A stretch of 32,779 nt of DNA from Thiocystis minor (lineage in GTDB: Bacteria; Pseudomonadota; Gammaproteobacteria; Chromatiales; Chromatiaceae). Below the pieces are notes generated by a model that searched no databases, was not told where the DNA came from, and saw only the letters and a list, made by a program, of their open reading frames with translations. Of this stretch, positions 1 through 32,144 are shown one piece after another. The stretch's first letter is position 1; each line of letters opens with the position of its first letter. The position numbers and the translations under genes are program-made. The DNA lies in contig NZ_NHSQ01000135.1 of the NCBI RefSeq assembly GCF_016653465.1, forward strand, positions 1 through 32,779, written 5' to 3'.

Positions 1-279
1 GAAGTTCAACTCGGTGGTGTCCTGCACGCACAGCACCACCGGCTGGCTCGCCATGCGTTCGCGCGTGCATTGGCGATGCGGTTCCAGGATATCCATCCAC
101 TCGAACGTCTCCTGGGACAGAAAGCGATACGCCGCCTGGGTCTCCGCCCAACCATGACACGCACCCGGAATGCTCGCCGTGGGTCGCTCGGCCAGACGCT
201 CCACCAATTGAACCACCCGCCGATCGCGGCGCGCGTCGCCCAGAGCGATCCCGCGAAATTCGTCTTCTGCCCAGCCCAT
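1..279 (-). CDS. IS4-family (Tn5-like) transposase, N-terminal fragment cut by window edge
   Basis: The minus frame beginning at an ATG at 279 gives 93 residues and is still open at base 1. It starts MGWAEDEFRGIALGD, continues through RRVVQLVERLAERPTASIP and HGWAETQAAYRFL, and reaches VLCVQDTTELNF at the edge. This is the N-terminal DNA-binding region of Tn5/IS50-type IS4 transposases followed by the first catalytic Asp (the D of QDTTEL, residue 87). A GGGGA ribosome site lies just upstream of the ATG. The remaining catalytic core lies outside the window, so I cannot say whether the transposase is intact. The gene follows, on the same strand, the truncated SBD gene, which suggests the insertion sequence landed in that gene. 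Family assignment is firm; the subgroup is not. Confidence 0.85.
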   Translation of the reverse strand, partial: MGWAEDEFRGIALGDARRDRRVVQLVERLAERPTASIPGACHGWAETQAAYRFLSQETFEWMDILEPHRQCTRERMASQPVVLCVQDTTELNF

Positions 280-441
280 GCGATCCCCAATGAACGTGAA
301 TGCTCAAACCTATTTTACCCGCACACGGGGAGTTGTGTGTAATGGGATGCGTTAATCCCTGCTTAACCCACCACCGTGTGATATGCGCGGTTTCTGAGCC
401 GATCAATCCAATTTCTTTCGTATCTGTAGCCATAGAGTCAT
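1..441 (-). mobile_element. One end of an IS4-family insertion sequence (inner boundary approximate)
   Basis: From the transposase start (279) to about 441 there is no gene. Similarity of the upstream gene to SBD proteins ends near 437-441. There, on the minus strand, the sequence TGACTCT occurs, resembling the outer end of IS50 (CTGACTCT), so I place the element's end there. A degenerate inverted repeat lies at 343-370 (TGGG..GTTAA facing TTAACCCA). The other end and any target duplication lie outside the window, so the boundary is an inference. Confidence 0.5.
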
Positions 442-892
442 CTCTTAAAAGTAGAGCCCTGCGGATTCGAGTGCGCCTTTCTTCTGTAAAAAATTTATTT
501 AACAAATCATCTGAAATCGACAATACTATATTTTTATCCGTCAGAAACATATCATACAAATCAAGATTGAACCCTCCTAAAATCTGTTCGTTAAGTTCGC
601 CGATCAATACGTCACCGGAAGCGGTTTTCGTCAATAACTCAAAACCATTAACCTCCCAAATATTATCACTCACCAAACGAGCAAACGGATATTGAAGATG
701 AAGCGGTTGATCAGAAAACGGAACCATCCTTGACGCTTCCTCATAACATCGAAAAGATGCCAGCCTCTCTTTCCCATGAAAACAACGTGCAAGCGCAATC
801 AATAAAAGAGCAGGCTTGTTAATCGAATAAAAGCCACCTTGTTTGTGAACTCGTATAGACAGAAAAGCAGAACGAACAACCTTTCTATCCAT
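437..892 (-). pseudogene. SBD-type phosphorothioated-DNA-binding restriction protein, truncated after its reader domain
   Basis: The minus frame opens with ATG at 892, only 2 bases after the sspD stop, so it belongs to the same operon. It stays open past the window edge, but family-like sequence lasts only about 152 residues. Visible motifs are NKPALLLIALARC (residues ~25-37), LQYPFARLVSDNIWEV (~67-81), GELNEQILGGFNLDLY (~98-113) and a C-terminal FFTEERRTRIRRALLL. From memory this order (KPLLLLLALGR, YPFxRL, WEV, GGF) matches the sulfur-binding domain of McrA-like HNH endonucleases that recognise phosphorothioate DNA. The HNH nuclease part expected downstream is absent and is replaced by the insertion sequence. 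The coding DNA is strikingly AT-rich compared with sspABC. As it stands it could encode only a DNA reader without nuclease, fused to a tail read from the IS. Family call is likely but unproven. Confidence 0.68.
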
Positions 893-894
893 GG

Positions 895-1698
895 CTACAA
901 GAAACAAACAAGACAGGCTTCGTCGTCGCCATGGTTTGAATATTCATCGAAAAGCTTTTTCTTGGGTTTTCTATCTTCTTTATCCTGCTGAATTTTTGCA
1001 TTCGCAAGTATCTCGTCAGCCCGAGCGAGCATATCGTCAAGATTTTCACCTTGAGACCAAGTGTGTTGACGACCTGCATCACGGTGAAATTGTTCATACT
1101 CCCTGGCCTTATCAAAAAGCGCGGGATATTTCCGAGCGAGCTTTACCCATTCATCTTTTCGTTGAAAGAAACAAAAATAACATCCAGAACGGCTTCTCCA
1201 TTCATAATATTTTGGCATTCCTAAACCGGAAGAATTCAAAATGTCTTCCACCATATCGCGCGTAATGCCATCTTCGATAAACGGATATCTAGCCGAAATG
1301 TTTGGCTTTGTTGATAAATAACCTTGTCGATGTTGCTCATCGGCACGAATTGCAACGTAAGTAATCGCCGTATCACTTCCAACATATTCTTCAAAAGGTC
1401 GAATTTTTAGTTCTGAAGTACACCATCGCGTCTTTGCTGTAGGCAAGAAATTCCCATTAAGCTGAAGATAAAACTCAAAGCTTTTTTTCGCATTCAACCG
1501 CACAATCGGCTTCCCAAGATAATCCTCCAGCAAATCGACAAACTCCAGCGTTTCCGGCAATTCGGCTCCGGTATCGGCAAAGAAGTATTCCATTTCCGGA
1601 ATCCGGTCGCGCAGATAAATCGCAAGCGCGGAGCTATCCTTGCCACCGGAAAGCCCCAAAAGATGACGCACTGGGCGCTTTGAATTGGTTTCAGTCAT
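895..1698 (-). CDS. sspD: SspD, PAPS-reductase-family (DndC-like) ATP pyrophosphatase of DNA phosphorothioation
   Basis: This 267-aa protein carries the PP-loop SGGKDSS at residues 17-23, which activates a phosphate by adenylation in the PAPS-reductase/adenine-nucleotide alpha-hydrolase superfamily. Two CxxC pairs (C173/C176 in GCYFC and C262/C265 at the extreme C-terminus) plus C93 (RWCTSELK) could hold an iron-sulfur cluster, as in DndC. I chose the ATG at 1698: the frame is open upstream to 1821, but those 41 codons are translated repeat hairpins. In the Ssp pathway SspD is the sulfur-insertion partner of the desulfurase SspA. It lies behind the other ssp genes on the same strand, separated by two small genes and a repeat, and its stop is 2 bases from the SBD gene. 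It is AT-richer than sspABC. A bona fide assimilatory PAPS reductase is unlikely given the neighbours and the cysteine pattern. Confidence 0.82.
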   Translation of the reverse strand: MTETNSKRPVRHLLGLSGGKDSSALAIYLRDRIPEMEYFFADTGAELPETLEFVDLLEDYLGKPIVRLNAKKSFEFYLQLNGNFLPTAKTRWCTSELKIRPFEEYVGSDTAITYVAIRADEQHRQGYLSTKPNISARYPFIEDGITRDMVEDILNSSGLGMPKYYEWRSRSGCYFCFFQRKDEWVKLARKYPALFDKAREYEQFHRDAGRQHTWSQGENLDDMLARADEILANAKIQQDKEDRKPKKKLFDEYSNHGDDEACLVCFL

Positions 1699-2376: not shown

Positions 2377-5300
2377 TCATGACTTGCTTTCAAACTCATG
2401 CTCGGACATGCGTTCAAATAATGCCGCGACCACCGCGAGCCGCGTCGTTTCATCGAGATCCGCCAATCCCTCGGCGATGCTGGCCGCCTTGCGCGCGGCG
2501 CTCTGGCGCTGTTCGGACGAGAGCTGAATGACCCGGCTGATCTCGCCCTGTTTGGCATCCACCCGTTTCAACAGGATCGTGCCATTGAGGCGCGTGGCGT
2601 CGGGCATGGCGAGCCGTAGCTTTTCGAGATCCCTGAGCTGGGCGCTGAGTTCATGCAGTCGCAATTCGGCGGCGAGCCGCGTTTCCTCGCGCCATTTGGC
2701 CGGCGGCGACTTGCCGATCAGGGTCGCGACCGATTCCAGCCAGGCGTCATCGGTCCGCTGCGCCGGATCGCTGAGACGCCGGATCAGCGCGCCCAGTCCC
2801 ATGCGGTCGGGGGTATAGCGGTCCAGGCCGCGATAGCGTTCGATCACGGCGAGGCGCAGATCGCCGAGGCTGGCGGTGTCGGTGTCCAGCAAGGCGGTGC
2901 CGAGCTGTTGCCGCCAGCCGTCGAGCAGCGCGGGATAGGCGTTTTTCAGCTCGTGTAGCGCCTTGACCAATGCCTGGATGAAGCGCTCGGCGAGCGCGGG
3001 ATCGGCGGCGGCGAAGGTCTCCGCCGTGAAGCCGCAGGCGGCGGGCAAGGCGTCGAACAGCAGGACGCCGGGGCTGCGGGCCTGTCGGAAGGCGGCGCGC
3101 ACGCGCTCGGCCTCCGGGCTGAGTCCGGCGCAATGCAAACTGTAGTCGGGCAGGTCGGCGATAAAGCGCACCAGCGGGCGGACAATATCGAGCAGCGTGG
3201 CATCCTGACGCACCTGACCGACGACCGAGCGGATGTAGCGGTCGAAGAGTTCGCCGCGCAGTCCGGTGATCGCGAAGCGTTCGAGCGCGAACAGTGCCGG
3301 TCGGCGGCACAGCAGTTCGACCTGCTCGATGGTCAGTTCGTCGCAGAAGACGCCTTCCTGATAGAGCGCGACCTCGCGCCGGCTGGCCAGCAGATAGGCG
3401 ACGATCAGCACCGGCAGCGGTCCCAGTTTGGCGCCATAGGGCGGGCGTTGCAGCCGCTCATGGAGCGCGGTCAGGGCGACGTGAGCGCCGCCCGATTCGC
3501 CGAGCATGTCGGTAATCGCCTGCCACAGCGGGCGCAACCGGCAGGGATCGGACGCCGGCGGCGGATGGAAACCGAAACGTCCGTCCACCTCGCGATGCAG
3601 GCCGCTTTCTTTCAGGACCGAGAGATAGAGGCTCTTTTCCGCCGGGGTCTTGGCGATCCCGAGATCGGGCTGGTCGGCGGCGGTCAGCATGGCCGCGAGC
3701 AGTCGCTTGCGTCCGGTATTGGCGCTGGCCGAGGGTTGATCGCGGTTGATCAGTTCGTTGCGCAGGCGCGGCGCTTGCGGATAACAGCGGGTGTCGACCC
3801 ACTGCGAGAGCTGGCGTTGGAGATCGCGCCGGTCGCGCACCGGGCGTTCGTCGCCGCCCCAGAACCAGGTCAGGGTCTCGGGCGCGTCCAGCAGGGTGCG
3901 AATGAGTTGGGCGGTTTCGCGCTCGGCATGCGCGAGCCAGGCGCGATGCTCGCGCTGGGCGACGGGGTCTTGATGGAGCGCGGCGTGTCGCTTGGGCAAT
4001 TCCTGCAAGGCCATCCATGCGACGACGGCTTCGCGGAGGCTGTCGGTGAACCCGCAGCGCGCGACGACCGCGCGGGCGGGCATGTCGTCCAGCGGCGGAT
4101 CTTCGTGCTCCTCGGCCAGATAGAACCAGAGACGCAGTTCGCCGCCCTCCTCCGCCGTGGGTGGCCAGCGGTCGCGGGCGATAAAGGTCGGGAGGAAACT
4201 GCGCAGGGCGCCGGTGAGGATGGTGGAGCGGCGCGCGACGATGGGCTTGAAGGGCGCGATGCGATTGAGGATGTCGACCAGCGGCAGGTTGATCTGTTCG
4301 GCGATGGCTTCCTGGAGCGCGCCGCGCAGATCGAAATCGCTGCCGGCCCAGACGCGGTATTCCTGACTGTAGTGGCGGAACTGGATGATCGAAGCGGCTT
4401 CGAGCCGCGCCAGCAGGCTGTCGAGCGCGTCGCCGAAGAGGTTGGCGAGCAGGGCCGGGCTGGCCTTGAGTCCGCGTTGCGCGCCGATCAGGTTGAGCAG
4501 GCCGAGGGTTTTCAGGAGCTTGACGGCGGCATCGTCGGGCGTGGCGTCGAAGCGTTCGAGGGCGGTGATGACTTCGACCCAGCGGTGGGCGGTGAGCGGG
4601 TCGGAGAAGCCGGCGGTCTGGTTGAGGATGAAATAGTCGTACAGCTCCCAGGGCTCGATCCAGTCGCCCATGGAAAGCTGGCCGAGTCGTTCGGTCAGTC
4701 CGAAGGGCTCGCGGCTGCCCAGGTAGGAAAACAGGGTGCGCTCGTTCTGCGCCACTTTTTGACAGAGGACCGGCAGGATCAGCAGGGTCAAGGGGTGCAG
4801 CGGGTAACAGCGCGCGAACAGCCGCCGCGCCTGCGCCGGATCGAGCCCCAGCGGGAGCGCGCCCTCTGCGTCGAGCGTGGCGGTCGCGGTCGCCAGTTGG
4901 TCGGTCAGGTCGGCGGTCAGGTCGCCCTCGCGCGCGAAGGCCGCGGCGACGATGCGCAAGGCTTGTTCGGCGGGTTCGAGAAAGGCGATCGCGCCAAAGC
5001 GACCCTGGATCTTTTGCCATTCCTCGCGCAGTGTTTTGCTCAGACGGTGGCTGTAGTGCTCGAAGGCTTGATGGAGCATGACCACCAGATGCAGCGGCGC
5101 GGCGCTCGGTTCCTGCGCTTGCTCGGCCAGCAGTTGCAGCAGATGGATCTCGCGGTGCTGGGGGTGATAGGACTCGTATTCGAGAAATTTGCCGAGTTCG
5201 TCGATTTCGATCAGGAGTCCGTCGCCGCCCTGTTGCGACCACACGCGCTGCACCTGCCGGATCAGGGCCAATACTCGGTCCATCGGATGGCACGGTTCGG

Positions 5301-5769
5301 CGGCGTCGAGAATCTCCTTGATCAGCAGCGAGCCCAAGCTGCGTTTTTGGGCCGCCGCGCCGAGCGCCAGCAGAAACTGGCGCGTCAGCGAGTCGGGGAT
5401 GCCGTTGATTTGGATCGTCAAAAATCCGCGCGCGCCTTTCAATGCGTGCTGAAAGCGGTCGGCCAACGGCGGGCTATGCGTGCGCAGGATGGCGAGCGCG
5501 GCCTGATGGGCGGGCGTCTGCTCCGTGTTCACGAGCGCGGACAGGAAGAGTCCGAACGCGGATTTCCCGGTGCCGTAGGGGCCGATGAGCGCCTGGGCGC
5601 GTCCGCCGGTCTCCTGCTCCAGTCCGTCGAGAATCTGGGCGAGCGCCTGAAGCGCCCGCGAGGTGGGCAGATAGGCTTGAATCAGTTCCAGGCGGTCGCA
5701 GTCGCGCGGCAGGTTGATCGAGCGGGTATAGGCGCCCTGGATGCGGATGCATTGGTCTAGCGAGGTCAT
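2377..5769 (-). CDS. sspC: SspC, large P-loop ATPase of DNA phosphorothioation
   Basis: This 1130-aa protein has a Walker A GPYGTGKS at residues 63-70 and a Walker B LLIEIDE at 185-191 followed by LGKFLEYE. The rest is a long, mostly helical leucine/arginine-rich region with no motif I can name, so its body is family-level unknown. Its ATG overlaps the sspB stop in an ATGA junction (5766-5769), indicating translational coupling. A large ATPase directly behind a DUF4007 protein and a cysteine desulfurase, with a PAPS-reductase homologue downstream, matches the published order sspA-B-C-D for single-strand phosphorothioate modification. In that system SspC is thought to supply ATP-driven work for sulfur insertion. 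It resembles BREX/Pgl-type ATPases in layout, but the neighbours do not fit BREX. GC content is very high, unlike sspD. Confidence 0.8.
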   Translation of the reverse strand: MTSLDQCIRIQGAYTRSINLPRDCDRLELIQAYLPTSRALQALAQILDGLEQETGGRAQALIGPYGTGKSAFGLFLSALVNTEQTPAHQAALAILRTHSPPLADRFQHALKGARGFLTIQINGIPDSLTRQFLLALGAAAQKRSLGSLLIKEILDAAEPCHPMDRVLALIRQVQRVWSQQGGDGLLIEIDELGKFLEYESYHPQHREIHLLQLLAEQAQEPSAAPLHLVVMLHQAFEHYSHRLSKTLREEWQKIQGRFGAIAFLEPAEQALRIVAAAFAREGDLTADLTDQLATATATLDAEGALPLGLDPAQARRLFARCYPLHPLTLLILPVLCQKVAQNERTLFSYLGSREPFGLTERLGQLSMGDWIEPWELYDYFILNQTAGFSDPLTAHRWVEVITALERFDATPDDAAVKLLKTLGLLNLIGAQRGLKASPALLANLFGDALDSLLARLEAASIIQFRHYSQEYRVWAGSDFDLRGALQEAIAEQINLPLVDILNRIAPFKPIVARRSTILTGALRSFLPTFIARDRWPPTAEEGGELRLWFYLAEEHEDPPLDDMPARAVVARCGFTDSLREAVVAWMALQELPKRHAALHQDPVAQREHRAWLAHAERETAQLIRTLLDAPETLTWFWGGDERPVRDRRDLQRQLSQWVDTRCYPQAPRLRNELINRDQPSASANTGRKRLLAAMLTAADQPDLGIAKTPAEKSLYLSVLKESGLHREVDGRFGFHPPPASDPCRLRPLWQAITDMLGESGGAHVALTALHERLQRPPYGAKLGPLPVLIVAYLLASRREVALYQEGVFCDELTIEQVELLCRRPALFALERFAITGLRGELFDRYIRSVVGQVRQDATLLDIVRPLVRFIADLPDYSLHCAGLSPEAERVRAAFRQARSPGVLLFDALPAACGFTAETFAAADPALAERFIQALVKALHELKNAYPALLDGWRQQLGTALLDTDTASLGDLRLAVIERYRGLDRYTPDRMGLGALIRRLSDPAQRTDDAWLESVATLIGKSPPAKWREETRLAAELRLHELSAQLRDLEKLRLAMPDATRLNGTILLKRVDAKQGEISRVIQLSSEQRQSAARKAASIAEGLADLDETTRLAVVAALFERMSEHEFESKS

Positions 5770-6665
5770 GCCGTCTGGCTCCCGTAGTGCGTGCGGAGCA
5801 GGTCAAGCGGATCTTCGAGCGCGCCGCGCCGGTAGAGCTGATGGACGCCGGCGGTATCGCGCAGTTCGTAACTTCGTGGGTAAAGGTCCATGAGCTGTCC
5901 GAGGCTGTGCATCAGCCCTTCCTCGCTGAGCCGAAAGATCGCCCCCGGCGCGGCCCACTGGTCGCCGCCCTGGAGCAGGGATCGGATGGGCAGCGCCGGC
6001 TGATCGGGATCGGCCCGGAAGCGTTGCGCGAGCGCGAAATGCAGGGCGACGGGCGGCAGAAAGGCGCGGATCAGGCGCGGACTGCGGTACTGGCGCCCGG
6101 CGTCGACCTCGATGAGTTGCAGATGCGCGAGCGGGGAATCCAGGTGATCGTCGCCGCGCTCGACCTGGGGCGCATACATGCGCAGCAGGGTGGAGATGTC
6201 GGATTTCAGGGTGCTGTGCGAGCGGCGCGCCTTGAGTTCTTTCGCGACGAATTCGCTCAAGGCTTGCAGCGCCTCCTGTTCCTGAAAGCGCGGCATGGCG
6301 AAGCGGTCGAAGAACCAGAAAAAGCCGGTGGCCATCTCGGGGTTGGAGGCAATCAGCCAATGGAGGATCCAGAGCGTGGCCTCGTCTTCGAGATAGCGGT
6401 CGCCTGTCTCGCCCAACAAGACCTCGCCCAGTGCGGTAGGCGTGCCGATGCCGTCGGCGAATTCGACGATGCCGGTGACTTGCAGCCAATATTGAATGGC
6501 GTTCGCCATGTTGCGGCCAACGCCCAGATCCACCATCGCCTGCTCGGGACGGGTGAACAGGTCCGGGGTTTTCTGGATGGTCTCGAATCCCTTGGTCAAC
6601 CAGCCGTAGCGCAGCGGAAAGGTTTCGTGGCGTCCGAAGGTGGTTTTATTGCGATTGAGCTTCAA
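5766..6665 (-). CDS. sspB: SspB, DUF4007 protein, probable DNA-nicking component of phosphorothioation
   Basis: The 299-aa product opens with KTTFGRHETFPLRYGWLTKG (residues 7-26), the hallmark of the DUF4007 family, followed by DLFTRPEQAMVDLGVGRNM and, later, DEATLWILHWLIASNP. In the Ssp system the DUF4007 protein SspB was reported to nick DNA, which could open the strand for sulfur insertion; that role is assigned here by family and neighbourhood. The start is a TTG at 6665; no in-frame ATG precedes the conserved region, and an upstream GTG/CTG start cannot be excluded. It lies 78 bases after sspA, and its stop overlaps the sspC start. No frameshift or missing segment is seen. Confidence 0.82.
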   Translation of the reverse strand: MKLNRNKTTFGRHETFPLRYGWLTKGFETIQKTPDLFTRPEQAMVDLGVGRNMANAIQYWLQVTGIVEFADGIGTPTALGEVLLGETGDRYLEDEATLWILHWLIASNPEMATGFFWFFDRFAMPRFQEQEALQALSEFVAKELKARRSHSTLKSDISTLLRMYAPQVERGDDHLDSPLAHLQLIEVDAGRQYRSPRLIRAFLPPVALHFALAQRFRADPDQPALPIRSLLQGGDQWAAPGAIFRLSEEGLMHSLGQLMDLYPRSYELRDTAGVHQLYRRGALEDPLDLLRTHYGSQTA

Positions 6666-6743: not shown

Positions 6744-7967
6744 TCATGAGGAACGCCGGGGGCTTTGCGGGGTAGTGGTCTGCATCGCGGTCGACGTCAG
6801 CGCGCGCATGCGCTGCACTGCCGCGACGATGCTGTTGACTGCGGCGGAGACTTCATCGACGGTTTGGTAACGGCTAAAACTGACACGCACCGCGCCATTG
6901 AGGGCGTCGCCTTCCACGCCCATTGTCCGCAAGACGGCGGACGGTTCGACGGTGCCGGACGCACAGGCGGACCCGGAGGCGATAGCAAGGTCGGGCGCAA
7001 GTTGGTTGATCAGCGCATCGCTGCCGATCCCGTCGATGGAGAGATTGACGATGTAGGGCGAACTCCGCGCGGGATCGCCGTGTACTCGATAGGTCAGATG
7101 GGCGGCGAGCTGTTCCAGAAACTGGCGCTTCAATTGCGCGACCCATGCCAGATCGGTCTCCCGACGGCGCGCCGCCAGTGTCAGCGCGCGACTCAGACCG
7201 ATGATCTGATGCGTGGGGAGTGTGCCGGGACGCAGGCCGAATTCCTGCCCGCCGCCATACATCAGCGGCTGTAGCCGGAGCTGACGGCGGTTGCGGACGA
7301 TCAGACAACCGATTCCTTTGGGTCCATGAAATTTGTGAGCCGAGAGCGCGAGCAGATCAATGGGAGTCTTTTCAAGATCGATGGCAAATTTCCCGGCGGA
7401 TTGCGCGGCGTCGACATGCAGAAGCATGCCGACCTCGGAGGCCAACGCCGCCATCTCGTCGATGGGCTGCATAACGCCGGTTTCGTTGTTGATGTGCTGG
7501 ATGGAGATCAACAGGGTGTCCGTCCGCACGGCCTGCCGCACCGTCTCGGGTTCGATCCAGCCGGCGCGGTTGGGCGGGAGACGGGTAATCTCGAAGCCGT
7601 CGCGTTCGAGTGCGGCGCAGCAGGCCAGAACGGATTGATGTTCGATGGCCGAGACGATCAGATGCCGCCCCTGGTCGACATGGGCGCGCGCCACGCCTTG
7701 CAGGGCCAGATTGTTGGCTTCGGTGGCGCCGGAGGTAAAAATGACCTCGTCGGATTCGCAGCCGAATTCGGCGGCAATCTCGGCGCGGGCGGCGCCAACG
7801 ACCGCCGCCGCGCGCTGACCTAGCCAGTGAGCCGTTGAGGAGGGATTTGCGTCAACGCCTTGAAGATGCGCGACCATGCGCACCAGCACCTCGGGCGCCA
7901 GCGCGGTGGCGGCGGCGTTGTCGAAATAGAGAGGGCCGGGCGCATGTCGTTCCTGATTCGTCACCAC
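6744..7967 (-). CDS. sspA: SspA, cysteine desulfurase (DndA/NifS/IscS family)
   Basis: This 407-aa PLP enzyme takes sulfur from L-cysteine as a persulfide. Key residues are visible: H110 in SAIEHQSV, the PLP lysine K212 in SAHKFHGPKG, D186/Q189 in HVDAAQSAGK, and the catalytic C335 in ASGSACASG followed by VLRTMG. The GTG at 7967 (or the next codon, also GTG) is preceded by GGAGAGG, a good ribosome site. It is the first gene of the minus-strand unit sspABC. The position directly before a DUF4007 gene, and the absence of iscU/iscR/hscBA, argue that it serves DNA phosphorothioation rather than housekeeping Fe-S assembly, though moonlighting is possible. Confidence 0.85.
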   Translation of the reverse strand: MVTNQERHAPGPLYFDNAAATALAPEVLVRMVAHLQGVDANPSSTAHWLGQRAAAVVGAARAEIAAEFGCESDEVIFTSGATEANNLALQGVARAHVDQGRHLIVSAIEHQSVLACCAALERDGFEITRLPPNRAGWIEPETVRQAVRTDTLLISIQHINNETGVMQPIDEMAALASEVGMLLHVDAAQSAGKFAIDLEKTPIDLLALSAHKFHGPKGIGCLIVRNRRQLRLQPLMYGGGQEFGLRPGTLPTHQIIGLSRALTLAARRRETDLAWVAQLKRQFLEQLAAHLTYRVHGDPARSSPYIVNLSIDGIGSDALINQLAPDLAIASGSACASGTVEPSAVLRTMGVEGDALNGAVRVSFSRYQTVDEVSAAVNSIVAAVQRMRALTSTAMQTTTPQSPRRSS

Positions 7968-8170: not shown

Positions 8171-10072
8171 TCACCGCCCCTCCAGCGTCTCCCAACGGGC
8201 ATACGCCTCCTCCAGCGCCGCGTCCACGACCTCCAGCCGGGCCTTGACTTTCGCGACCTCGCCCCCGTCCGCCTGATAGAGCGCGGGATCGGCCATGCGC
8301 GCGTGGAGATCCGACTGTTCCTGCTCCAGCGACTCGATGCGCGCCGGCAGTTCGGCCAGTTCGCGGGTTTCCTTGAAACTCAACTTGTCCGCGCCGCGCT
8401 TGGGCTTGGCGGTCTCCGGGCCGGATTCCGCGGGTTTCGGCTTGGTCTCGGCGGGTCGGACAGGGGCGACCGGGGCTGGACGCTGGCGCAACCAGTCCTC
8501 GTAACCGCCGACGTAATCGTTCACCCGCCCGTCGCCCTCGAACACCAGGGTGCTGGTGACGACATTGTCCAGCATGACGCGGTCATGACTGACCAGCAGC
8601 AGGGTGCCGGCGAATTGCACCAGTAACTCCTCCAGCAATTCGAGCGTCTCGGTGTCGAGATCGTTGGTCGGCTCGTCGAGCACCAGCAGATTGGCCGGGC
8701 GGGTGAACAGCTTGGCCAGCAGCAGTCGATTGCGCTCGCCGCCGGACAAGGCATTGACCGGCTGGCGCGCGCGCTCGGGCGTGAAGAGGAAATCCTTAAG
8801 GTACGAGAGGACGTGCCGCGATTGACCATCGATCTCGATCTGATCGCTGCCGCCGGCCACGTTGTCCTGCACGCTCTTTTCCAGATCGAGCTGGGCGCGC
8901 AATTGGTCGAAATAGGCGACCTGCAGATTGGTGCCGCGCTGGATGCGTCCGCCTTGGGGCTCCAGATCGCCCAGCAGCAGCTTGAGCAGGGTGCTCTTGC
9001 CGACGCCGTTGGGGCCGATGATGCCGATCTTGTCGCCGCGCAGAATCAGGGTGCTGAAGTCGCGGATGACCGGTTGGTCGCTCCAGCCGTAGGTCACGCC
9101 CTCGGCCTCCACCACCAGTTTGCCCGAACGCTCCGCGTCGCTCACCCGAAGGCGCGCGGTGCCCTGTTGCTCGCGCCGCTCGCGCCGCTCCTCGCGTAGC
9201 GCCTTGAGCGCGCGCACCCGGCCCTCGTTGCGGGTTCGCCGCGCCTTGACGCCCTGACGGATCCACACCTCCTCCTCGGCCAGTTTACGGTCGAATTGCT
9301 CGACCGCCATCGACTCGGCGTGCAGACGCTCTTCGCGGCGGCGCAGATAGTTGGCGTAGTCGCCGGGCCAGTCGGTGATGCGCCCGCGATCGATTTCCAG
9401 AATCCGGGTCGCGACCCGTTGCAGAAAGCGCCGATCATGGGTGACGAATAGCAGCGAACCGGGAAAATCCAGCAGAAACTCTTCGAGCCAATTGATGGAT
9501 TCGATATCCAGATGGTTGGTCGGCTCGTCGAGCAGCAGCAGATCGGGCTCGATGACGAGCGCGCGGGCCAGCAGCACGCGGCGTTGAAGACCGCCCGAGA
9601 GCGACTGGAACTGGGCTTCGGCATCCAGCCCGAGCCGCGTGATGACCCGCTCGGTGCGCCGCTCGATCTCCCAGCCGTTGCGGTCTTCCAACTGCTGCTG
9701 AACGCGCGCCAAGCGGTCAAGTTCGCCCTCGCTGGCACTGGCGCCGAGACCATGGGACAGCCTGAAATATTCCTGCACCAAACCGCCAAGGTCGCCCAGT
9801 CCATCCGCGACCACCTCGAAGACCGTGGCGTCAGTCTGTTCGCGCGGAATCTCCTGGGCCAGCTTGGCGATGGTCACGCCCTGCACGACCCGGACCTGGC
9901 CGCCGTCGGCCTGGATCTCGCCGGCGATGATGCGCAGCAGCGTGGATTTGCCGGCTCCGTTGCGGCCGATCAAACAGATCCGCTCGCCCCGGTCGATGGT
10001 CAAGGTGACATCCTCCAACAGCGGCGGCTGACCATAGGAGAGGGAGATCGAATCGAGATTGAGCAGTGGCAT
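8171..10072 (-). CDS. uup: ABC-F ATPase, Uup type
   Basis: This 633-aa soluble protein has two ATP-binding cassettes: Walker A GRNGAGKST (residues 36-44), signature LSGGLQRR and LLLLDEPTNHLD (~178-189); then Walker A GPNGVGKST (353-361), signature LSGGERNR and LVLDEPTNDLD. Between them is the arginine-rich interdomain linker (EEVWIRQGVKARRTRNEGR) typical of ABC-F proteins. A C-terminal extension with a charged region and a coiled-coil-like segment (SLEQEQSDLHARMADPALY) matches the DNA-binding coiled coil of Uup. ABC-F proteins act on ribosomes; Uup also affects transposon excision and branched-DNA metabolism. The ATG at 10072 has AAGGAAA upstream. It is divergent from the FNR-like regulator. 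Uup is chosen over EttA/YheS because of the C-terminal domain and LSGGLQRR. Confidence 0.9.
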   Translation of the reverse strand: MPLLNLDSISLSYGQPPLLEDVTLTIDRGERICLIGRNGAGKSTLLRIIAGEIQADGGQVRVVQGVTIAKLAQEIPREQTDATVFEVVADGLGDLGGLVQEYFRLSHGLGASASEGELDRLARVQQQLEDRNGWEIERRTERVITRLGLDAEAQFQSLSGGLQRRVLLARALVIEPDLLLLDEPTNHLDIESINWLEEFLLDFPGSLLFVTHDRRFLQRVATRILEIDRGRITDWPGDYANYLRRREERLHAESMAVEQFDRKLAEEEVWIRQGVKARRTRNEGRVRALKALREERRERREQQGTARLRVSDAERSGKLVVEAEGVTYGWSDQPVIRDFSTLILRGDKIGIIGPNGVGKSTLLKLLLGDLEPQGGRIQRGTNLQVAYFDQLRAQLDLEKSVQDNVAGGSDQIEIDGQSRHVLSYLKDFLFTPERARQPVNALSGGERNRLLLAKLFTRPANLLVLDEPTNDLDTETLELLEELLVQFAGTLLLVSHDRVMLDNVVTSTLVFEGDGRVNDYVGGYEDWLRQRPAPVAPVRPAETKPKPAESGPETAKPKRGADKLSFKETRELAELPARIESLEQEQSDLHARMADPALYQADGGEVAKVKARLEVVDAALEEAYARWETLEGR

Positions 10073-10140
10073 CGGGTTTCCTTAGGGGTAAGCACGGGCG
10101 ACGCCATCCGGTTGCGTCCGAACGGCGGTGCATGACTGAT

Positions 10141-10169
10141 TTGCGATTTCGCAATGAGGCGATGATAAT
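10141..10169 (+). promoter_or_regulatory. Predicted promoter of the FNR-like gene with an overlapping palindrome
   Basis: TTGCGA at 10141-10146 and GATAAT at 10164-10169 are separated by 17 bases, a good sigma70-like pair. The -35 is part of a 14-base palindrome TTGCG-ATTT-CGCAA (10141-10154), which has the 5-4-5 geometry of CRP/FNR family sites. It may be an autoregulatory operator; this is inference. Confidence 0.5.
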
Positions 10170-10261
10170 TGTTTCTCTACACGCCTGATCCGGCAAATAG
10201 GGCATCCTGCACCTGACATGCCCGCAGGCAGACTCGGTTTTTCAGGAATGACCTTAACCCG

Positions 10262-10969
10262 ATGGCGAAAAGTGTGACATTACGGGATGCCTGGTCCGGC
10301 GAGGCAAACTGCCAAAATTGCTCGCTCCGAACCTCGGTTCTCTTTGCTGGGCTGCAAGAGTCCGACTTCGAGCGCATTCACGACCCCATCGACCAGTTCA
10401 CGCTGAAGCCTGGGACGAGCCTCTACCGTGCCGGCGACACCGGCGACCACATGTTCACGGTCCGCGCCGGTGCCCTGAAGCTGGTCCAGTATCTGCCGGA
10501 CGGGAGTCAGCGCATCGTGCGCATCGTGCGCGCGACCGACGTGCTGGGCCTGGAGGCAATTCTTGACGATGCCTACCACCATGATGCGATCGCGCTGCAT
10601 GTCACCGAAGTCTGCCGCTTTCCGGCGCGGCTGGTGCGTGACCTGGGACGCGAAAACCCGGACCTGCATCACGAACTCATGACGCGCTGGCAACGTGCCT
10701 TGACCGAGGCCGATGCCTGGCTGACCGAACTCTCCACCGGCGCGGCGCGCCAACGGGTCGCGCGCCTGCTGCTGCGCCTGGTACTGGATCGCGAAACCAG
10801 CGAGTGTAACCTCTTCAGCCGCGAGGACATGGGCGCCATGCTCGGCGTGACCACCGAAACCACCAGCCGCACCATCGCCGAATTCAAGCGTCAGAGTCTC
10901 TTGGTCGAAACCGCGCCCAACCTTTTTTTGCTCGATATTCCCAATCTGCGCCGCATTGCCGAGGATTGA
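10262..10969 (+). CDS. CRP/FNR-family transcription regulator, FNR-like
   Basis: The 235-aa product has an N-terminal cysteine pair (ANCQNCSLR, C17 and C20), a cyclic-nucleotide-binding-like beta barrel (about 35-130, with AGDTGDHMFTVRAGALKL), a dimer helix, and a C-terminal winged helix with FSREDMGAMLGVTTETTSRTIAEF. The E..SR pattern in TTETTSR is that of the FNR recognition helix for TTGAT half sites. A cysteine equivalent to FNR C122 is present (C118, EVCRFP), but the residue matching FNR C29 is a valine (V26). Only three of four cluster ligands are therefore seen, making a normal oxygen-sensing 4Fe-4S cluster uncertain. It is divergent from uup and precedes the DUF6858/NifX-like genes and cydABX, all plausible low-oxygen targets. 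I do not give a gene name because it could be Fnr, Anr or a divergent relative. Confidence 0.88.
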   Translation: MAKSVTLRDAWSGEANCQNCSLRTSVLFAGLQESDFERIHDPIDQFTLKPGTSLYRAGDTGDHMFTVRAGALKLVQYLPDGSQRIVRIVRATDVLGLEAILDDAYHHDAIALHVTEVCRFPARLVRDLGRENPDLHHELMTRWQRALTEADAWLTELSTGAARQRVARLLLRLVLDRETSECNLFSREDMGAMLGVTTETTSRTIAEFKRQSLLVETAPNLFLLDIPNLRRIAED

Positions 10970-10996
10970 CGCCATTCCGTCTCCGGGATGTTGAGT

Positions 10997-11010
10997 TTGA
11001 CTGATTTCAA
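10997..11010 (+). promoter_or_regulatory. FNR-type binding site upstream of the DUF6858 gene
   Basis: TTGAC-TGAT-TTCAA matches the FNR consensus TTGAT-N4-ATCAA in geometry and in 8 of 10 half-site bases. It lies 128 bases before the ATG at 11138. If centred at -41.5 it would place transcription start near 11045, with a weak TACTCT at 11033-11038 as the -10. The neighbouring regulator is an obvious candidate binder. Confidence 0.55.
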
Positions 11011-11137
11011 TGCCGCGCGCCGGAACAACTCGTACTCTCCATCTGTTTTGTCGCTCACGGCCGCGAGTTCATCCACAACCGCCGGCGACAGGAACGAGGT
11101 AACCGCCAGAATCCAATCGTCGTCGATGGAGATCGTC

Positions 11138-11545
11138 ATGAAACAAAGCCTCACGCTCGCGGAATACCCGCTGTTCACCCTGGAGATCGAGCGCGAGGAG
11201 ACCCGTTTCGATTCGGTCGACGCGATCTGCGCCTATTTCCGGGCCTGTATCGAGTCGCATCGCGGGGCGGAGTTCATCGCCGAGTTCGACCATTACGCGC
11301 ACACCAAATCCCTCCCGGAAGGCCAGATCGGCGAAGGGATTCTCGCCGCCAAGAATGTCGTTTTCTGTCTGGGAATCGCACTACCGAATCCGCATCTTCT
11401 CGCCGACCGCCCGAGATCCATTGGCGTCGCCGAGACCGATCAGGGTTTCCTGATTACCTTTCTGGAAGCCCCCATGCCGGTGGTCAACGCCGCCATGGAA
11501 GACTGGGCGCTGGGACTCTGCGACCGACCGCGGACGGCAACCTGA
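11138..11545 (+). CDS. DUF6858-type small protein of unknown function
   Basis: The 135-aa product begins MKQSLTLAEYPLFTLEI and contains DAICAYFRACIESH, AEFDHYAHTKSLPEGQI, AAKNVVFCLGIALPNP and RPRSIGVAETDQGFLITF. From memory this pattern belongs to the DUF6858 family, without known activity. I chose the ATG at 11138 because GGAG lies 8 bases upstream and family similarity starts there; the frame is open back to 10988 but that part overlaps the FNR-type site. No signal peptide is seen. It is followed 31 bases later by the NifX-like gene, so the two probably form an operon, perhaps controlled by the adjacent FNR-like protein. Confidence 0.72.
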   Translation: MKQSLTLAEYPLFTLEIEREETRFDSVDAICAYFRACIESHRGAEFIAEFDHYAHTKSLPEGQIGEGILAAKNVVFCLGIALPNPHLLADRPRSIGVAETDQGFLITFLEAPMPVVNAAMEDWALGLCDRPRTAT

Positions 11546-11576
11546 CTCTTCAACCCTTCAGCCCTGGAACCACCCC

Positions 11577-11972
11577 ATGCGCATCGCCGTCACCAGCCAG
11601 AACTTTCGCACCATCACCGGCCATGCCGGCAAGAGCAGACGCTTTCTCATCCTGGAAGCCGATGGCGTGAGCGCCCCGGTGGAGATCGACCGGCTGGATC
11701 TGCCCATGGACCTGTCGCTGCACGACTATCATGGCGACGATCATCCGCTGTTCGAGCTGCAACTCGACGCCATTGTCACCCAGGGCGCGGGCCAGGGCTT
11801 CATCCAGCGGCTGTCGCGTCATGGCATCCGGGTGCATACGACCAGCGCCACCGATCCAGTCGAGGCCGTCAACGCCATCGCGACGGGGAAAGCGCTGCCC
11901 GTCGCCGCGCCGCATGACCACGACCACGCACCTGACCGTCCGCGCATGACGCTCTCCCCCGACACGCATTGA
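11577..11972 (+). CDS. NifX/NafY-like dinitrogenase iron-molybdenum cofactor-binding domain protein
   Basis: The 131-aa protein opens MRIAVTSQNFRTITGHAGK and has GAGQGFIQRLSRHGIRVHT followed by DPVEAVNAIATGKAL, the fold signature of the NifB-C/NifX/NafY domain, which binds FeMo-co precursors or related metal clusters. The C-terminus is histidine-rich (APHDHDHAPD), suggesting extra metal binding. Its ATG at 11577 has only a weak GGAA ribosome site. No nif genes are nearby, so it may serve another metallocluster or act as a stand-alone accessory protein. It lies between the DUF6858 gene and cydA. Confidence 0.78.
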   Translation: MRIAVTSQNFRTITGHAGKSRRFLILEADGVSAPVEIDRLDLPMDLSLHDYHGDDHPLFELQLDAIVTQGAGQGFIQRLSRHGIRVHTTSATDPVEAVNAIATGKALPVAAPHDHDHAPDRPRMTLSPDTH

Positions 11973-12222
11973 TCTCGCCCCGAGCAGCAGCCACCCGGAA
12001 CCCCCGACGATGCGAGTCGTTTTGATGGGGGTATAAAAAGATGCTGCGCTACACTTTGCTTCGGGTCATTCCTGACAACTCCGTTATGGCTTACCCTCTC
12101 GCGGTGGAACATCCGGCATGACGCGCGAGACGCCGCGCCAAACACAGGCTCGGCGCTACACAAACACCGCCGGATCGTGACTTATCTCTCTTACTTGACG
12201 GCTTGGATCAGGAGAATCGTTC
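11973..12222 (+). promoter_or_regulatory. Region upstream of cydA
   Basis: This 250-base noncoding stretch must hold the cyd promoter. A TATAAA at 12032-12037 lies just after an FNR-like half site TTGAT at 12022-12026, but there is no good -35 and no second half site, so I propose only an activated promoter here. AGGAGA about 8 bases before the cydA ATG is a clear ribosome site. Confidence 0.35.
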
Positions 12223-13827
12223 ATGCTCGACAGCGCCATGGTTGAACTCTCGCGATGGCAGTTCGCCAGTACCGCGATGTATCACTTCCTGTTCGTTCCC
12301 CTGACACTGGGGCTCTCCTGGATCCTGGTGATCATGGAAAGCGTCTATGTCATGACCGGACGGGAAATCTACCGTGACATGACCAAGTTCTGGGGCAAAC
12401 TCTTCGGTATTAACTTTGCCCTCGGGGTGACCACCGGACTCACGATGGAGTTCCAGTTCGGCACCAACTGGGCCTATTACAGCCACTATGTCGGGGATGT
12501 CTTCGGCGCCCCGCTCGCCATCGAGGGTCTGATGGCGTTCTTCCTGGAGTCCACCTTCATCGGGCTCTTCTTCCTCGGCTGGGAGCGCCTGTCCAAGCGT
12601 CAGCATCTGGCCGTCACCTTCCTGATGGCCTTTGGCTCGAACCTCTCCGCGCTCTGGATTCTGATCGCCAACGGCTGGATGCAGAATCCGGTCGGCTCCG
12701 AATTCAGTTTCGAGACCATGCGCATGGAAATGACCAGCTTCGGCGAACTGCTGATGAACCCGGTCGCTCAGGTCAAGTTCGTGCACACCGTCGCCGCCGG
12801 CTATGTGACCGCCACCATGTTCGTGCTCGGCATCAGCGCCTGGTACATGCTGAAGGGACGCGATCTGGCCTTTGCCAAACGCTCCTTCTCGGTCGCCGTC
12901 GGTTTCGGACTGGCATCGATCCTCTCGGTCATCCTGCTCGGCGACGAGTCCGGCTACGAGGTGGGCGACATCCAGCGGGTGAAGCTCGCAGCGATCGAGG
13001 CCGAATGGGAGACCGAGAAGGCGCCCGCCGCCTTCACCATCTACGGCAACCCGAGCAACGAGGACGAGGAGACGCACAATGCCATCAAGGTGCCCTGGCT
13101 GCTCGGACTGATCGCCACCCGCTCGCTCGACACCGAGGTCAAGGGACTGAAAGACCTGATGGTCGATCACGAGGTGCGCATTCGCAGCGGCATGGTCGCC
13201 TATGAATACCTGGAGCGTCTGCGCAGCGGCGAGGACACCCCCGGCAACCGCGCCAGCTTCGAGGATCATAAGGACGATCTGGGCTATGGCCTGCTGTTGA
13301 AGCCCTATACCGAGAATCCGGCCCAGGCCACCGAGGAACAGATCCAGATGGCGGTCAAGGATTCCATCCCCGAAGTCGCGCCCATCTTCTGGGCCTTCCG
13401 GGTCATGGTCGGGGCCGGCGTCTGGATGCTGCTGCTGTTGGTGCTTGGTTTCTACTACAACGCCAAGCGCGTGATTCAGGAGAAACGCTGGCTGCTGCGT
13501 CTGTTCCTGTGGAGCATCCCGGTGCCCTGGCTCGCGGTCGAAACCGGCTGGTTCGTCGCCGAATTCGGACGGCAACCCTGGGCCATCGGCGAGGTGCTTC
13601 CGACCAGTATCGCCGCGTCGAGCCTGACCGCCACCGACCTCGTCATCAGTATGTCCGGCTTTCTCCTCTTCTATACGGTGCTCTTTATCATCGAGATGTT
13701 CCTGATGGTCAAATTCGCCCGTCAGGGACCAAGCTCGCTACATACCGGGCGTTATCATCACGAGTGCGATACCGGCCACGCAGGCGGCATGACACCCGCG
13801 ACGGCCCCTCAGAAACAGGCTGACTAG
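12223..13827 (+). CDS. cydA: Cytochrome bd oxidase subunit I
   Basis: The 534-aa membrane protein holds the three hemes and oxidises quinol while reducing oxygen to water. Heme ligands expected for CydA are visible: H21 in [14 protein letters not shown], the histidine of [13 protein letters not shown] (heme b558), and the methionine of [11 protein letters not shown]. The quinol-binding Q-loop follows [24 protein letters not shown] with conserved Lys/Glu. Length is slightly above that of the E. coli subunit (522), with a soluble C-terminal tail containing YHHECDTGH. It begins the cydA-cydB-cydX operon (cydB 11 bases downstream). It supports respiration at low oxygen, consistent with the FNR-like gene upstream. 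Confidence 0.97.
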
Positions 13828-13838: not shown

Positions 13839-14987
13839 TTGACCATGATTCTTGATTACGAAACGCTGAAATTTATCTGGTGGGTGCTGGTCGGCGTGCT
13901 CTTCATCGGCTTTGCCGTCACCGACGGCATGGACATGGGCGTCGGCACGCTGCTGCCGTTCCTGGGCAAGACCGACGACGAACGGCGCGTCATCATCAAC
14001 ACCATCGGCCCGCACTGGGACGGCAACCAGGTCTGGCTTATCACCGCCGGCGGCGCGATCTTCGCCGCCTGGCCGCTGGTCTACGCGGCGGCCTTCTCGG
14101 GCTTCTACTTCGCCATGCTGCTGGCGCTGTTCGCGCTCTTCTTCCGGCCGGTCGGCTTCGACTACCGCAGCAAGATCGAGGATAAACGCTGGCGCAACGC
14201 CTGGGACTGGGGACTGTTCGTCGGCGGCGCCGTGCCCGCGCTGGTGTTCGGAATCGCCTTCGGCAATCTGCTCCAGGGGGTTCCTTTCCATTTGGATAAC
14301 TTCCTGCGGCCCTTCTACAGCGGCGGTTTCTTTGGTCTGCTGAATCCCTTTGCCCTGCTTGCCGGTCTGATCAGTCTCGGCATGCTGACCATGCACGGCG
14401 CGATCTGGCTGCAGCTGCGCACCGCCGATCCGATCGCGTCACGGGCCAAGGTCTGGGCCAAGAAGGTCGGGTTGGCGACCATCGTCGGCTTTGCCATCGC
14501 GGGCGTGTGGATGAGTCTGGGCATCGAGGGGTTCCGGGTGGTGTCGGAGCATGTGCCCAACGCCACCCCCAACCCGCTGGATAAAGAGGTCATACAGGAG
14601 GCCGGTGCCTGGCTTGCGAACTACGGTAACCATCCCTGGACGCTGATTTTTCCGCTGCTGGGTTTCGCTGGACTGGGGCTTGGCATCCTGGGGTCGATGT
14701 CCGATCGCCCCGGACTTGGGCTGGTCGCGAGCAGTCTGGGGCTGACCGGGGTGATCATGACCGCGGGCGCGGCCATGTTCCCCTTCATCATGCCGTCGAG
14801 CACCAACCCGAACAGCAGCCTGATCGCCTGGGACGCCGTCTCCAGTCACCTGACGCTCACCGTCATGTTCTGGGCCGCGGTGATCTTTATCCCGCTGATT
14901 CTCGCCTACACCACCTGGACCTACGCCAAGATGTGGCGGCGGGTGACGGTGGAAGAGATCCAGGCGCAGGATCATCTGGCGTATTAA
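13839..14987 (+). CDS. cydB: Cytochrome bd oxidase subunit II
   Basis: The 382-aa protein matches CydB in length and landmarks: the N-terminal LKFIWWVLVGVLFIGFAVTD, the GMDMGVGTLLPFLGKTDDERR segment, IGPHWDGNQVWLITAGGAIF, and many hydrophobic helices. CydB has no heme of its own; it pairs with CydA to form the inner-membrane quinol oxidase. It follows cydA closely and is followed by cydX after 109 bases. No anomalies seen. Confidence 0.97.
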   Translation: MTMILDYETLKFIWWVLVGVLFIGFAVTDGMDMGVGTLLPFLGKTDDERRVIINTIGPHWDGNQVWLITAGGAIFAAWPLVYAAAFSGFYFAMLLALFALFFRPVGFDYRSKIEDKRWRNAWDWGLFVGGAVPALVFGIAFGNLLQGVPFHLDNFLRPFYSGGFFGLLNPFALLAGLISLGMLTMHGAIWLQLRTADPIASRAKVWAKKVGLATIVGFAIAGVWMSLGIEGFRVVSEHVPNATPNPLDKEVIQEAGAWLANYGNHPWTLIFPLLGFAGLGLGILGSMSDRPGLGLVASSLGLTGVIMTAGAAMFPFIMPSSTNPNSSLIAWDAVSSHLTLTVMFWAAVIFIPLILAYTTWTYAKMWRRVTVEEIQAQDHLAY

Positions 14988-15096
14988 TCCGCGTCCGGAC
15001 CGATCCGCGCGGTCGCGAGCCGTCGCCCGCAACCGCGCGATCACCCAAGCCGCGTCAGCCAAGATTTATTGACGACCGAATCGAGAGGAACATTCC

Positions 15097-15213
15097 ATGT
15101 GGTATTTCGCCTGGCTCTTAGGCGTCTTTCTGGCACTAGCCCTCGGAATCATCAACGTGATGTGGTATGAATCCGAACAGTGCATGGGCATGAACGACGA
15201 CCAACCGACTTGA
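15097..15213 (+). CDS. cydX: CydX, small subunit of cytochrome bd oxidase
   Basis: A 38-aa frame starting MWYFAWLLGVFLALALGII, with a single membrane helix and the diagnostic N-terminal MWYFAW of CydX, which stabilises the hemes of the CydAB complex. It lies 109 bases after cydB and has a GAGAGGAA ribosome site 6 bases before the ATG. The C-terminal tail (ESEQCMGMNDDQPT) is polar and slightly longer than in E. coli. A terminator follows immediately. Confidence 0.93.
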   Translation: MWYFAWLLGVFLALALGIINVMWYESEQCMGMNDDQPT

Positions 15214-15233
15214 CCCGTCCTTGACCGAGATAG

Positions 15234-15262
15234 AAAAAACGCGGCTTCTGGCCGCGTTTTTT
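15234..15262 (+). terminator. Rho-independent terminator after cydX
   Basis: A 12-base-pair perfect stem (AAAAAACGCGGC pairing with GCCGCGTTTTTT) with a 5-base loop starts 20 bases after the cydX stop. A-tract and T-tract flank the GC core, so it could work in both directions. Confidence 0.95.
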
Positions 15263-15321
15263 ATTGGGACGATGAAAGCGTTCAAGCGCTTTCCGAGAAA
15301 CGCGATGTTTCGGAAAATATT

Positions 15322-15446
15322 GCGACGGGGTGAATACCCCGTCGCGCTATCGTTGTTCTTGCTTACGTTGTTCTTGCTTACGTTGTCGTTGTCGTTGTCG
15401 TTGTCGTCATCATTCTTCGATTCGACAACGAAAGCGACAACGAAAG
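15322..15446. repeat. Hairpin followed by direct repeats, including a CGTTGT hexamer array
   Basis: A perfect 10-bp hairpin (GCGACGGGGT/ACCCCGTCGC, 15322-15345) precedes two copies of a 15-base unit CGTTGTTCTTGCTTA (15351-15380), four CGTTGT hexamers (15381-15404) and, inverted, two copies of the 12-base unit CGACAACGAAAG (15423-15446). The arms can fold onto each other. A related hexamer array recurs at 25654-25728. No coding role is apparent; the surrounding 15263-15502 has no gene. Confidence 0.9.
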
Positions 15447-15502
15447 CGAGAGTCCTGACAAGGCGCATGCCCCGTCCGGCCATGTTATTTTCCGGGAGTT
15501 TC

Positions 15503-16180
15503 CTAACCCGCCGTGATCGGCACAATGATGATATCGACCCGGCGATTCAGACGCCGACCCGCTTCGGTCTCATTGCTCGCGACCGGCTTGTTCATGCCAA
15601 ACCCGGCGGACGCGATGCGTTCCTGATAGACGCCAGAGCCGGTGAGATAATTCTCGACCGATCCAGCGCGGCGCTCCGACAGAAGCTGATTATGCTCGGC
15701 CGATCCGGTGCTGTCGGTATGACCCGCGACCGCCAGCTCGGTCTTGCCATACTCGTTCACGATGGCGGCGATCTTGTCCATGGTGCTGTAGAAACCGGGC
15801 TTGATCCGGTCCGAATCCACCTCGAAGGCGGTCTCGCCCGTCATGCCCACCAGCAGTTCGTCGTTGGGCAATTTCTGCACCCGAATCATGCCGCTGGCAA
15901 TCTCGTCGGCTAACTCCTTCTGGAAATCCTTGTGCTGCTGCTCCATGTAGGCGCCGACCATGCCGCCCGCCAGGGCGCCGCCAATGGCGCCAATCAGGGC
16001 GCCGCGTCCCGCGTTGGCGCCCAGCGAGCCGATGAGCGCCCCGGCGGCGGCGCCGGTCGCGGTGCCGATGGCCGCGCCCCGGCCGGTCTGGGACATGCCC
16101 GAACCGTCGGCGGCGCAACCGGTAATGAGGACGGCCACGGTTGCCGCGACAGCAATACGTTTGGAAAAATTGGCTTTCAT
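15503..16180 (-). CDS. OmpA-family outer-membrane lipoprotein with glycine-zipper segment
   Basis: The 225-aa product starts with a lipoprotein signal peptide (lipobox LITGC, cysteine at 22). A glycine-rich membrane-like segment follows (GAAIGTATGAAAGALIGSLG and GALIGAIGGALAGGMVGAYM). The last ~110 residues are an OmpA C-terminal peptidoglycan-binding domain with AGHTDSTGSAEHNQLLSERR and GRRLNRRVDIIIVP. It resembles YiaD-type proteins tethering the outer membrane to the cell wall. It is convergent with cydX and has its own transcription; upstream GGAG lies close to the ATG at 16180. Confidence 0.93.
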   Translation of the reverse strand: MKANFSKRIAVAATVAVLITGCAADGSGMSQTGRGAAIGTATGAAAGALIGSLGANAGRGALIGAIGGALAGGMVGAYMEQQHKDFQKELADEIASGMIRVQKLPNDELLVGMTGETAFEVDSDRIKPGFYSTMDKIAAIVNEYGKTELAVAGHTDSTGSAEHNQLLSERRAGSVENYLTGSGVYQERIASAGFGMNKPVASNETEAGRRLNRRVDIIIVPITAG

Positions 16181-16447
16181 TCGAGACTCCTTGCGGGATG
16201 GACAGCGAAGATCGCGCCAGCCGCTCCAGTCAAAAACCGGGACCTCTCCGAAGCTCGGACCCCCGGTTCATGGCGGCTTGGCTGACATGATGTACTGGGT
16301 GCCGATCATACCAGAGCATCCCACGCAGTCGGATCATCGAGATTCGGAAACCCGGTGGTTGCACCCTCGACTCACAGGGGCCTTGCATATCGAGACCTCG
16401 GACATCAATTGGACGAATACCGCGCCGACATTCTCCGAGGAGCCCGA

Positions 16448-17798: not shown

Positions 17799-17843
17799 GC
17801 CTTGGCCGAATCACGGCTTTCATGTTTCAACCGGAGGAGTGCG

Positions 17844-18383: not shown

Positions 18384-18396
18384 GAGGATGTCACTC
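18378..18396. other. Short hairpin holding both convergent stop codons
   Basis: GAGTGA and TCACTC form a 6-bp stem around a 7-base loop; each arm contains the TGA stop of one of the two converging genes. There is no T-tract, so it is not a standard terminator, but it may help separate the converging transcripts. Confidence 0.5.

Positions 18397-31871: not shown

Positions 31872-32144
<273 letters not shown>

Follow-up and report, generated by a model that had tools for sequence, protein, structure and literature searches.

An insertion sequence (IS) at the left end of the window, the whole stretch of 32,779 nucleotides analysed here, interrupts a gene that almost certainly encodes a sulfur-binding domain (SBD) fused to DUF4007, a probable reader of phosphorothioate (PT) DNA. 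On balance, and with appreciable doubt, we favour the view that this gene, whose front half lies in the window, is the first of a BREX type 4-like module located directly behind a complete sspABCD PT writer, and that it acts through the mechanism proposed below. The features on which this reading rests are listed in Table 1. Papers given by PMC number are cited from excerpts of their text.

Table 1. Position, strand and supporting evidence of the features discussed (window coordinates unless a contig is given)
Feature	Position	Strand	Evidence or remark
IS4/Tn5-type insertion sequence, one end, cut by the contig edge	1..349	-	PF14706, NF049926, NF033590, genome copies
Transposase start within the IS	1-279	-	Tnp_DNA_bind PF14706, E 2.1e-25
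9-bp target-site duplication of the IS	350..358	.	same 9 bases at the other IS end, C101:128-136
Predicted SBD-DUF4007 reader gene, 5' part, 181 codons	350..892	-	NF045808, solved-SBD profile match, IS end
Predicted SBD within the reader gene	about 452-871	-	followed by a linker and some 18 opening positions of DUF4007
sspD, PAPS-reductase-like sulfur transferase	895..1698	-	PADLOC SspD, E 1.2e-105 (ORF 895-1821)
sspC, ATPase	2377..5769	-	PADLOC SspC, bits 1237
sspB, DUF4007	5766..6665	-	PADLOC SspB 1.5e-75; PF13182 3.8e-77
sspA, cysteine desulfurase	6744..7967	-	PADLOC SspA 3.3e-132
Predicted reader gene, 3' part	C101:128-919	+	263 codons and stop

A probable reader gene divided between two contigs

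The window is an entire contig (C135) of a genome assembled in 198 contigs. On its minus strand, the sspD stop codon (897-895) is followed two bases further by an ATG (892-890), which opens the new frame announced in the preliminary description, and the SBD motifs reported there are present in it (NKPALLLIALAR, YPFARL, WEV and GGF). As had also been described, this frame is open as far as the contig edge; the gene itself runs from 892 to 350 and meets the IS at 349, and position 437, where the earlier account had placed its limit, is neither a stop nor a border and lies 87 bases short of 350. The encoded protein matches a single named NCBIfam model, NF045808 ('phosphorothioated DNA-binding restriction endonuclease'; E 1.4e-11, model positions 5-150 of 284), a model matched by all of the 13 aligned SBD sequences. 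Furthermore, a 13-sequence profile that includes the window protein reaches the SBD of ScoMcrA (5zmo, E 1.7e-17) and that of SprMcrA (7cc9, E 4.5e-9). Because of the NF045808 match and these two profile matches, the frame is taken, by sequence comparison, to hold a real SBD, so that the earlier SBD call stands and so does the HMM comparison with ScoMcrA that had been put forward for it. As a lone query, the window protein reaches 5zmo at E 0.06 only and, at E 1, returns nothing from Pfam, and its AlphaFold2 model, computed from the single sequence without alignment, has a mean pLDDT of 35.

The interrupting element has the transposase, the inverted ends and the 9-bp duplication of the IS4/IS50 type. 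When positions 1-1200 of the window were compared with its own genome, 40 matches were scored, beginning with the window itself, and the scan of 18 own-genome stretches revealed two complete IS copies, one of 1415 and one of 1417 bp, both bordered by a perfect 9-bp duplication. Since both complete copies have such duplications, the bases at 350-358 were expected again at the other flank of the interrupting copy. A genome search with this 9-mer joined to the other IS end returned one exact place (C101:113-136) and one other with two mismatches. Contig C101 starts with the IS end, continues with the same nine bases (128-136) and then with a frame open up to 919. Read from 128, this frame opens on GGATTAACG in the phase of the window part, which closes on the same letters and whose 181 codons (350-892) are whole and end on the duplicated nine bases. 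These observations argue strongly that C101 and C135 flank one and the same IS copy. The IS4-type interruption read earlier from the window is thus corroborated by the Tnp_DNA_bind match, the genome copies and the duplication.

The C101 half matches SspB in PADLOC (E 8.9e-9), has no Pfam family match at E 0.1 and no HNH match. Its identity is 54% to the DUF4007 part of an SBD-DUF4007 protein of 460 residues (Pfam DUF4007, E 2.1e-17) that is unbroken in G147, a MAG of an uncultured Thiocystis, and the two pieces, searched apart, land on this protein at 8-164 (window) and 195-460 (C101). The DUF4007 model is covered at 20-290 by the C101 piece and at 2-19 by the last 18 residues of the window tail, the latter in register and not significant alone. 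This tail, MATDTKEIGLIGSETAHITRWW, was left unaligned to DUF4007 by MAFFT; the possibility that an HNH domain begins in it was considered and set aside because by eye it resembles the start of DUF4007 and its register immediately precedes that of the C101 piece. The preliminary description had seen in this gene the restriction arm of the operon, an SBD endonuclease with its nuclease half replaced by the IS. That part of the description does not hold, as the recovered half is DUF4007 (SspB-like) and as the SBD homologues found behind sspD are SBD-DUF4007 or SBD-SspF proteins. The truncation itself withstood comparison with IS-free relatives: uninterrupted homologues continue, none of them ending at the same residue, and G147 carries the unbroken SBD-DUF4007 gene in the same gene order.

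The module behind sspABCD and its relatives

SspA, SspB, SspC and SspD are all present at full length (PADLOC, with near-full profile coverage), and a second profile annotation, whose profiles include the window's own proteins, agrees. The coupling of the SBD to sspD noted previously is therefore borne out, the SBD lying behind a complete sspABCD operon. On C101, the reader is followed in order by a 161-residue protein of no known family, a BrxC-like ATPase of 1256 residues (SspC/BrxC-like, 6e-43), a PglZ and a BrxL (1.7e-106), the PglZ being weak with both PADLOC (1e-3) and Pfam (4e-3) and beneath the curated cut-off. With profiles built from G147 and G441, these four genes are of full length; the reader gene is the only one cut by an IS at this locus.

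In G147, the intact SBD-DUF4007 gene has the same neighbours in the same order. G441 also has an intact gene and the same order, but with a 116-residue ORF in between and with sspD split by an insert; the ORF found between the sspD parts (L071:12296-13876), just upstream of the intact SBD-DUF4007 gene, resembles that of an IS66-type transposase. In the order to which the organism belongs, 23 of 210 genomes match the SBD-DUF4007 profile; read row by row, eight of them have this DUF4007, 12 an SBD-SspF or an SBD alone, and three a protein of SBD-HNH length. The profile is matched by 27 of the 151 genomes of G441's family, by 9 of 369 genomes in the class sample and by 3 of 398 in the phylum sample, the own genome being counted, and with so few matches in the last two the abundance is known for the own order and G441's family only. 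A scan of genome contigs gave one locus, that of G147, and a scan of viral contigs with the SBD alignment gave 31 stretches that fit the pattern, none of which was confirmed. Among plasmids, SBD-DUF4007 yielded a single record, whose annotation reads PT-DNA restriction endonuclease, and SBD-SspF yielded eight, each of the nine covering less than 80% of the query.

A set of 32 annotated loci was assembled from 31 retrieved stretches, less two of the SspF type, together with G147, G441 and the window joined to C101; it leaves out some places in G441's family without this DUF4007 (for instance G1044:C199, G986 and G1030). The SBD is fused and intact in nine loci, encoded with DUF4007 as separate ORFs in three (L125, L130 and L144, one of them through a single in-frame stop), broken in six (this window, L123, L124, the near-copies L137 and L146, and L128, beside a contig edge) and not detected in 14, so that it does not appear essential to the module. 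When fragments are counted, sspD is found upstream in 30 loci, and downstream come the small gene in 30, BrxC in 29, PglZ in 25 and BrxL in 23. Eighteen of the 23 absences fall at contig ends (sspD 2/2, BrxC 2/3, PglZ 6/7, BrxL 8/9); both absences of the small gene (L132 and L135) are away from contig ends.

In L137 (5267-6716) and L146, some 1.4 kb of inserted DNA, with an open frame of 260 residues that resembles an IS1-type transposase, interrupts the SBD, a further IS-like hit on this reader gene. The breaks of the reader gene were examined for an excess, and none is claimed, because breaks also occur in sspD (L071, L132) and BrxC (L123, L128, L132, L141) and because many of the genomes are in many contigs. 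In L058, BrxL is followed by a third DUF4007 protein and an SspC-like ATPase of 1524 residues (12704-13714 and 14705-19279), and an ORF of about 350 residues occurs there in three tandem near-copies (9682-12755; PVDDYDSPWKAAVTHAFPEFLAFYFP and the like). A lookalike of this third type of DUF4007 follows SspH in relatives such as L048 and L073.

The SBD clade and its two settings

In relatives, SspF is the fusion partner of the SBD that comes immediately after sspD, and SspG and SspH follow. Within the own order, SspF is present in 14 of 210 genomes, with nine open SBD-SspF fusions, one frame-shifted fusion, one separate SBD gene, two cases without SBD and one that is cut. A tree of 37 SBDs, from which fragments under 120 positions were dropped, sets 29 Ssp-linked SBDs apart from eight others (100/99). 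No ssp operon was found around these eight; seven of them carry HNH_2, and the eighth (L042) has no Pfam match at E 0.01. The Ssp-linked SBDs lie at most 120 nt behind sspD or its end in 27 cases out of 29, the two exceptions being one at a contig edge and L053, with no sspD in 1.9 kb. By the starred branches of this tree, the SBD must have entered or left the DUF4007 setting at least five times. The window SBD falls within the SspF-fused SBDs (97/92), its nearest neighbour being that of G496 (95/83), while its DUF4007 groups with those of the own order (100/100), which points to different histories for the two domains. In the DUF4007 tree, which keeps 31 rows after a single short one was dropped, the SBD label changes at least seven times over the starred branches, and its clustering is weak, as 43 of 500 shuffles were as low.

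We raise the idea, on which our confidence is evenly divided, that the SBD clade of Ssp operons is an exchangeable reader of the self mark, swapped between two effector modules unrelated to each other, SspFGH and the BREX-4-like BrxC/PglZ/BrxL, in which reading the host's PT would steer or switch the effector, opposite to the type IV SBD nucleases, whose target is PT-DNA.

The sulfur pocket of ScoMcrA comprises H116, R117, Y164, P165 and A168, of which A168 was called less conserved, and the substitution P165N abolished binding (PMC6224610). At these positions, the alignment gives N, K, Y, P and R for the window SBD, so that 117, 164 and 165 are as published or accepted (R/K117) and 116 and 168 are changed. 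Among the 29 Ssp-linked SBDs, K117 is counted in 29, Y164 in 27, P165 in 20 and A165 in nine; N at 116 is found in the window SBD and two others. All nine SBDs with A165 have Y116, eight of them in the DUF4007 setting and one in the SspF setting. In this A165 group the critical residue is changed, and its members may have another way of reading the mark or none.

Proposed mechanism, competing explanations and known systems

The mechanism that we propose for the SBD-DUF4007 reader, and that we hold to be about evenly balanced between right and wrong, is as follows. SspABCD would mark host DNA with PT and the SBD would bind this mark; the DUF4007 part, which would have an SspB/BrxA-like DNA-binding fold, would couple PT reading to BrxC, PglZ and BrxL; and these effectors would act on DNA without the mark, following the logic of SspE and SspFGH, rather than cut PT-DNA. 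In SspE, PT binding switches the effector, which then acts on unmarked DNA (PMC9646914), and SspFGH inflicts damage on DNA that lacks the mark and becomes toxic when the writer is missing (PMC8092258). Furthermore, SBD-HNH genes are near dnd writers in less than 3.6% of cases (PMC7461809). Since the SBD of this clade is nearly always beside a PT writer and SBD-HNH genes are rarely so, it should read self DNA and not cut PT. In the present strain, the IS would part the SBD from nearly all of DUF4007 while the writer and the effectors are kept, and PT reading is probably uncoupled. A system defused by a transposon, as the preliminary description proposed, is plausible; the small gene, BrxC, PglZ and BrxL are intact on C101, and the SBD and DUF4007 are separate in 3 of the 32 loci, both of which weigh against taking it as settled.

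The main rival, which we regard as unlikely, makes SBD-DUF4007 and the second BrxC a maintenance-type second writer that would read existing PT and direct further sulfur insertion with SspD, leaving defence to PglZ and BrxL. A role in writing is possible because DUF4007 and BrxC-like proteins are also parts of the writer (SspB and SspC); BREX type 4 (brxPCZL) is counted among the PT-making gene families (PMC11931770); DUF4007, BrxC and PAPS reductase are common to BREX-4 and Ssp (PMC12839542); and the module, which has no PAPS reductase of its own, comes directly after sspD. However, the full sspB and sspC already present would render a second pair redundant, and the same SBD clade is also carried by SspF, a restriction component.

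Less probable still is a split gene that continues to work, the SBD and a slightly shortened DUF4007 being made as two proteins. Such a state would resemble the three loci with separate ORFs, and an ORF on C101 (65-919) starts inside the IS and runs through the remaining DUF4007, but the cut falls inside DUF4007, of which model positions 20-290 are left on C101, and not at the domain border as in the relatives. We find it highly improbable that the SBD was once carried by SspF in an SspFGH system before the IS arrived and that the C101 match is a repeat accident: the place of the window SBD in the tree would suit such an origin, but the nine duplicated bases agree exactly and keep the phase, their only other place having two mismatches, the gene order is the same as in G147, and the search of the own genome returned the SBD alone for SspF and nothing for SspG, an empty search that by itself proves little. 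Finally, hardly any credit can be given to the reading, suggested by the name of NF045808, that the IS took the place of the nuclease half of an SBD-HNH-type restriction endonuclease. The NF045808 match is limited to the first part of the model, the recovered half is DUF4007-like, and the HNH_2-carrying SBD proteins form their own clade. No more than one further place in the genome matches NF045808 (L009, C113:18517-18891, NF045808 positions 151-276), a decayed HNH stretch unrelated to the window gene; it was rejected as the lost half because it lies mid-contig, contains one internal TAG and has no IS end of this kind in the surrounding 18 kb, the other flank having been found on C101.

The SBD-DUF4007 module, as we read it, resembles BREX type 4 (brxPCZL) as a PT-linked defence with DUF4007, BrxC, PglZ (a weak match here) and BrxL. 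In BREX type 4, however, DUF4007 often forms one protein with BrxP, a PAPS reductase (PMC12839542). That fusion is absent here, the partner of DUF4007 being the SBD; SspD has a gene of its own, and the module is preceded by a full sspABC. With SspABCD-SspFGH it shares the writer and, in relatives, the SBD clade fused to SspF directly behind sspD, but its effector is BrxC/PglZ/BrxL and not SspFGH; the excerpts of PMC8092258 hold no mention of an SBD on SspF. The type IV enzymes with SBD-HNH or SBD-SRA-HNH architecture (ScoMcrA, SprMcrA, EcoWI) have in common with it an SBD, in which three of the five sulfur-pocket positions (117, 164 and 165) are as published or accepted; unlike them, it has no HNH, it is accompanied by a PT writer instead of lying apart from one, and its SBD belongs to a separate clade. 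As in SspABCD-SspE, a PT reader would be coupled to an effector thought to act on unmodified DNA, but in SspE it is the protein's own N-terminal domain, by way of a hydrophobic patch, that reads PT, and not an SBD (PMC9646914).

In the excerpted literature, the SBD appears in PMC12839542, and likewise in PMC10853773, only as the wHTH of HNH proteins. The sulfur-binding domain is mentioned together with BREX in PMC9646914 and the SBD together with SspF in PMC9239176; three of SspC, SspD, PglZ and BrxC are mentioned together in PMC12839542 and PMC12707154, and DUF4007 and 'phosphorothio', among others, in PMC8713573. SspBCD together with PglZ or BrxL was not found among the matches listed, nor did the excerpts name an arrangement of Ssp writer, SBD-DUF4007 and BrxC/PglZ/BrxL, which we provisionally consider as new to the literature. 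They also gave no explanation of how SspFGH and BREX-4 tell PT-marked self from phage DNA. A dedicated SBD reader directly behind sspD, on either effector, would explain this in a definite way that binding assays could probe, and the natural loci described above supply fused, split, missing and IS-broken readers. Moreover, genes named 'PT-DNA-binding restriction endonuclease' from the SBD alone may be no endonucleases.

Elsewhere in the window, the ORFs at 31881-32575 look like an antitoxin-PIN toxin pair.
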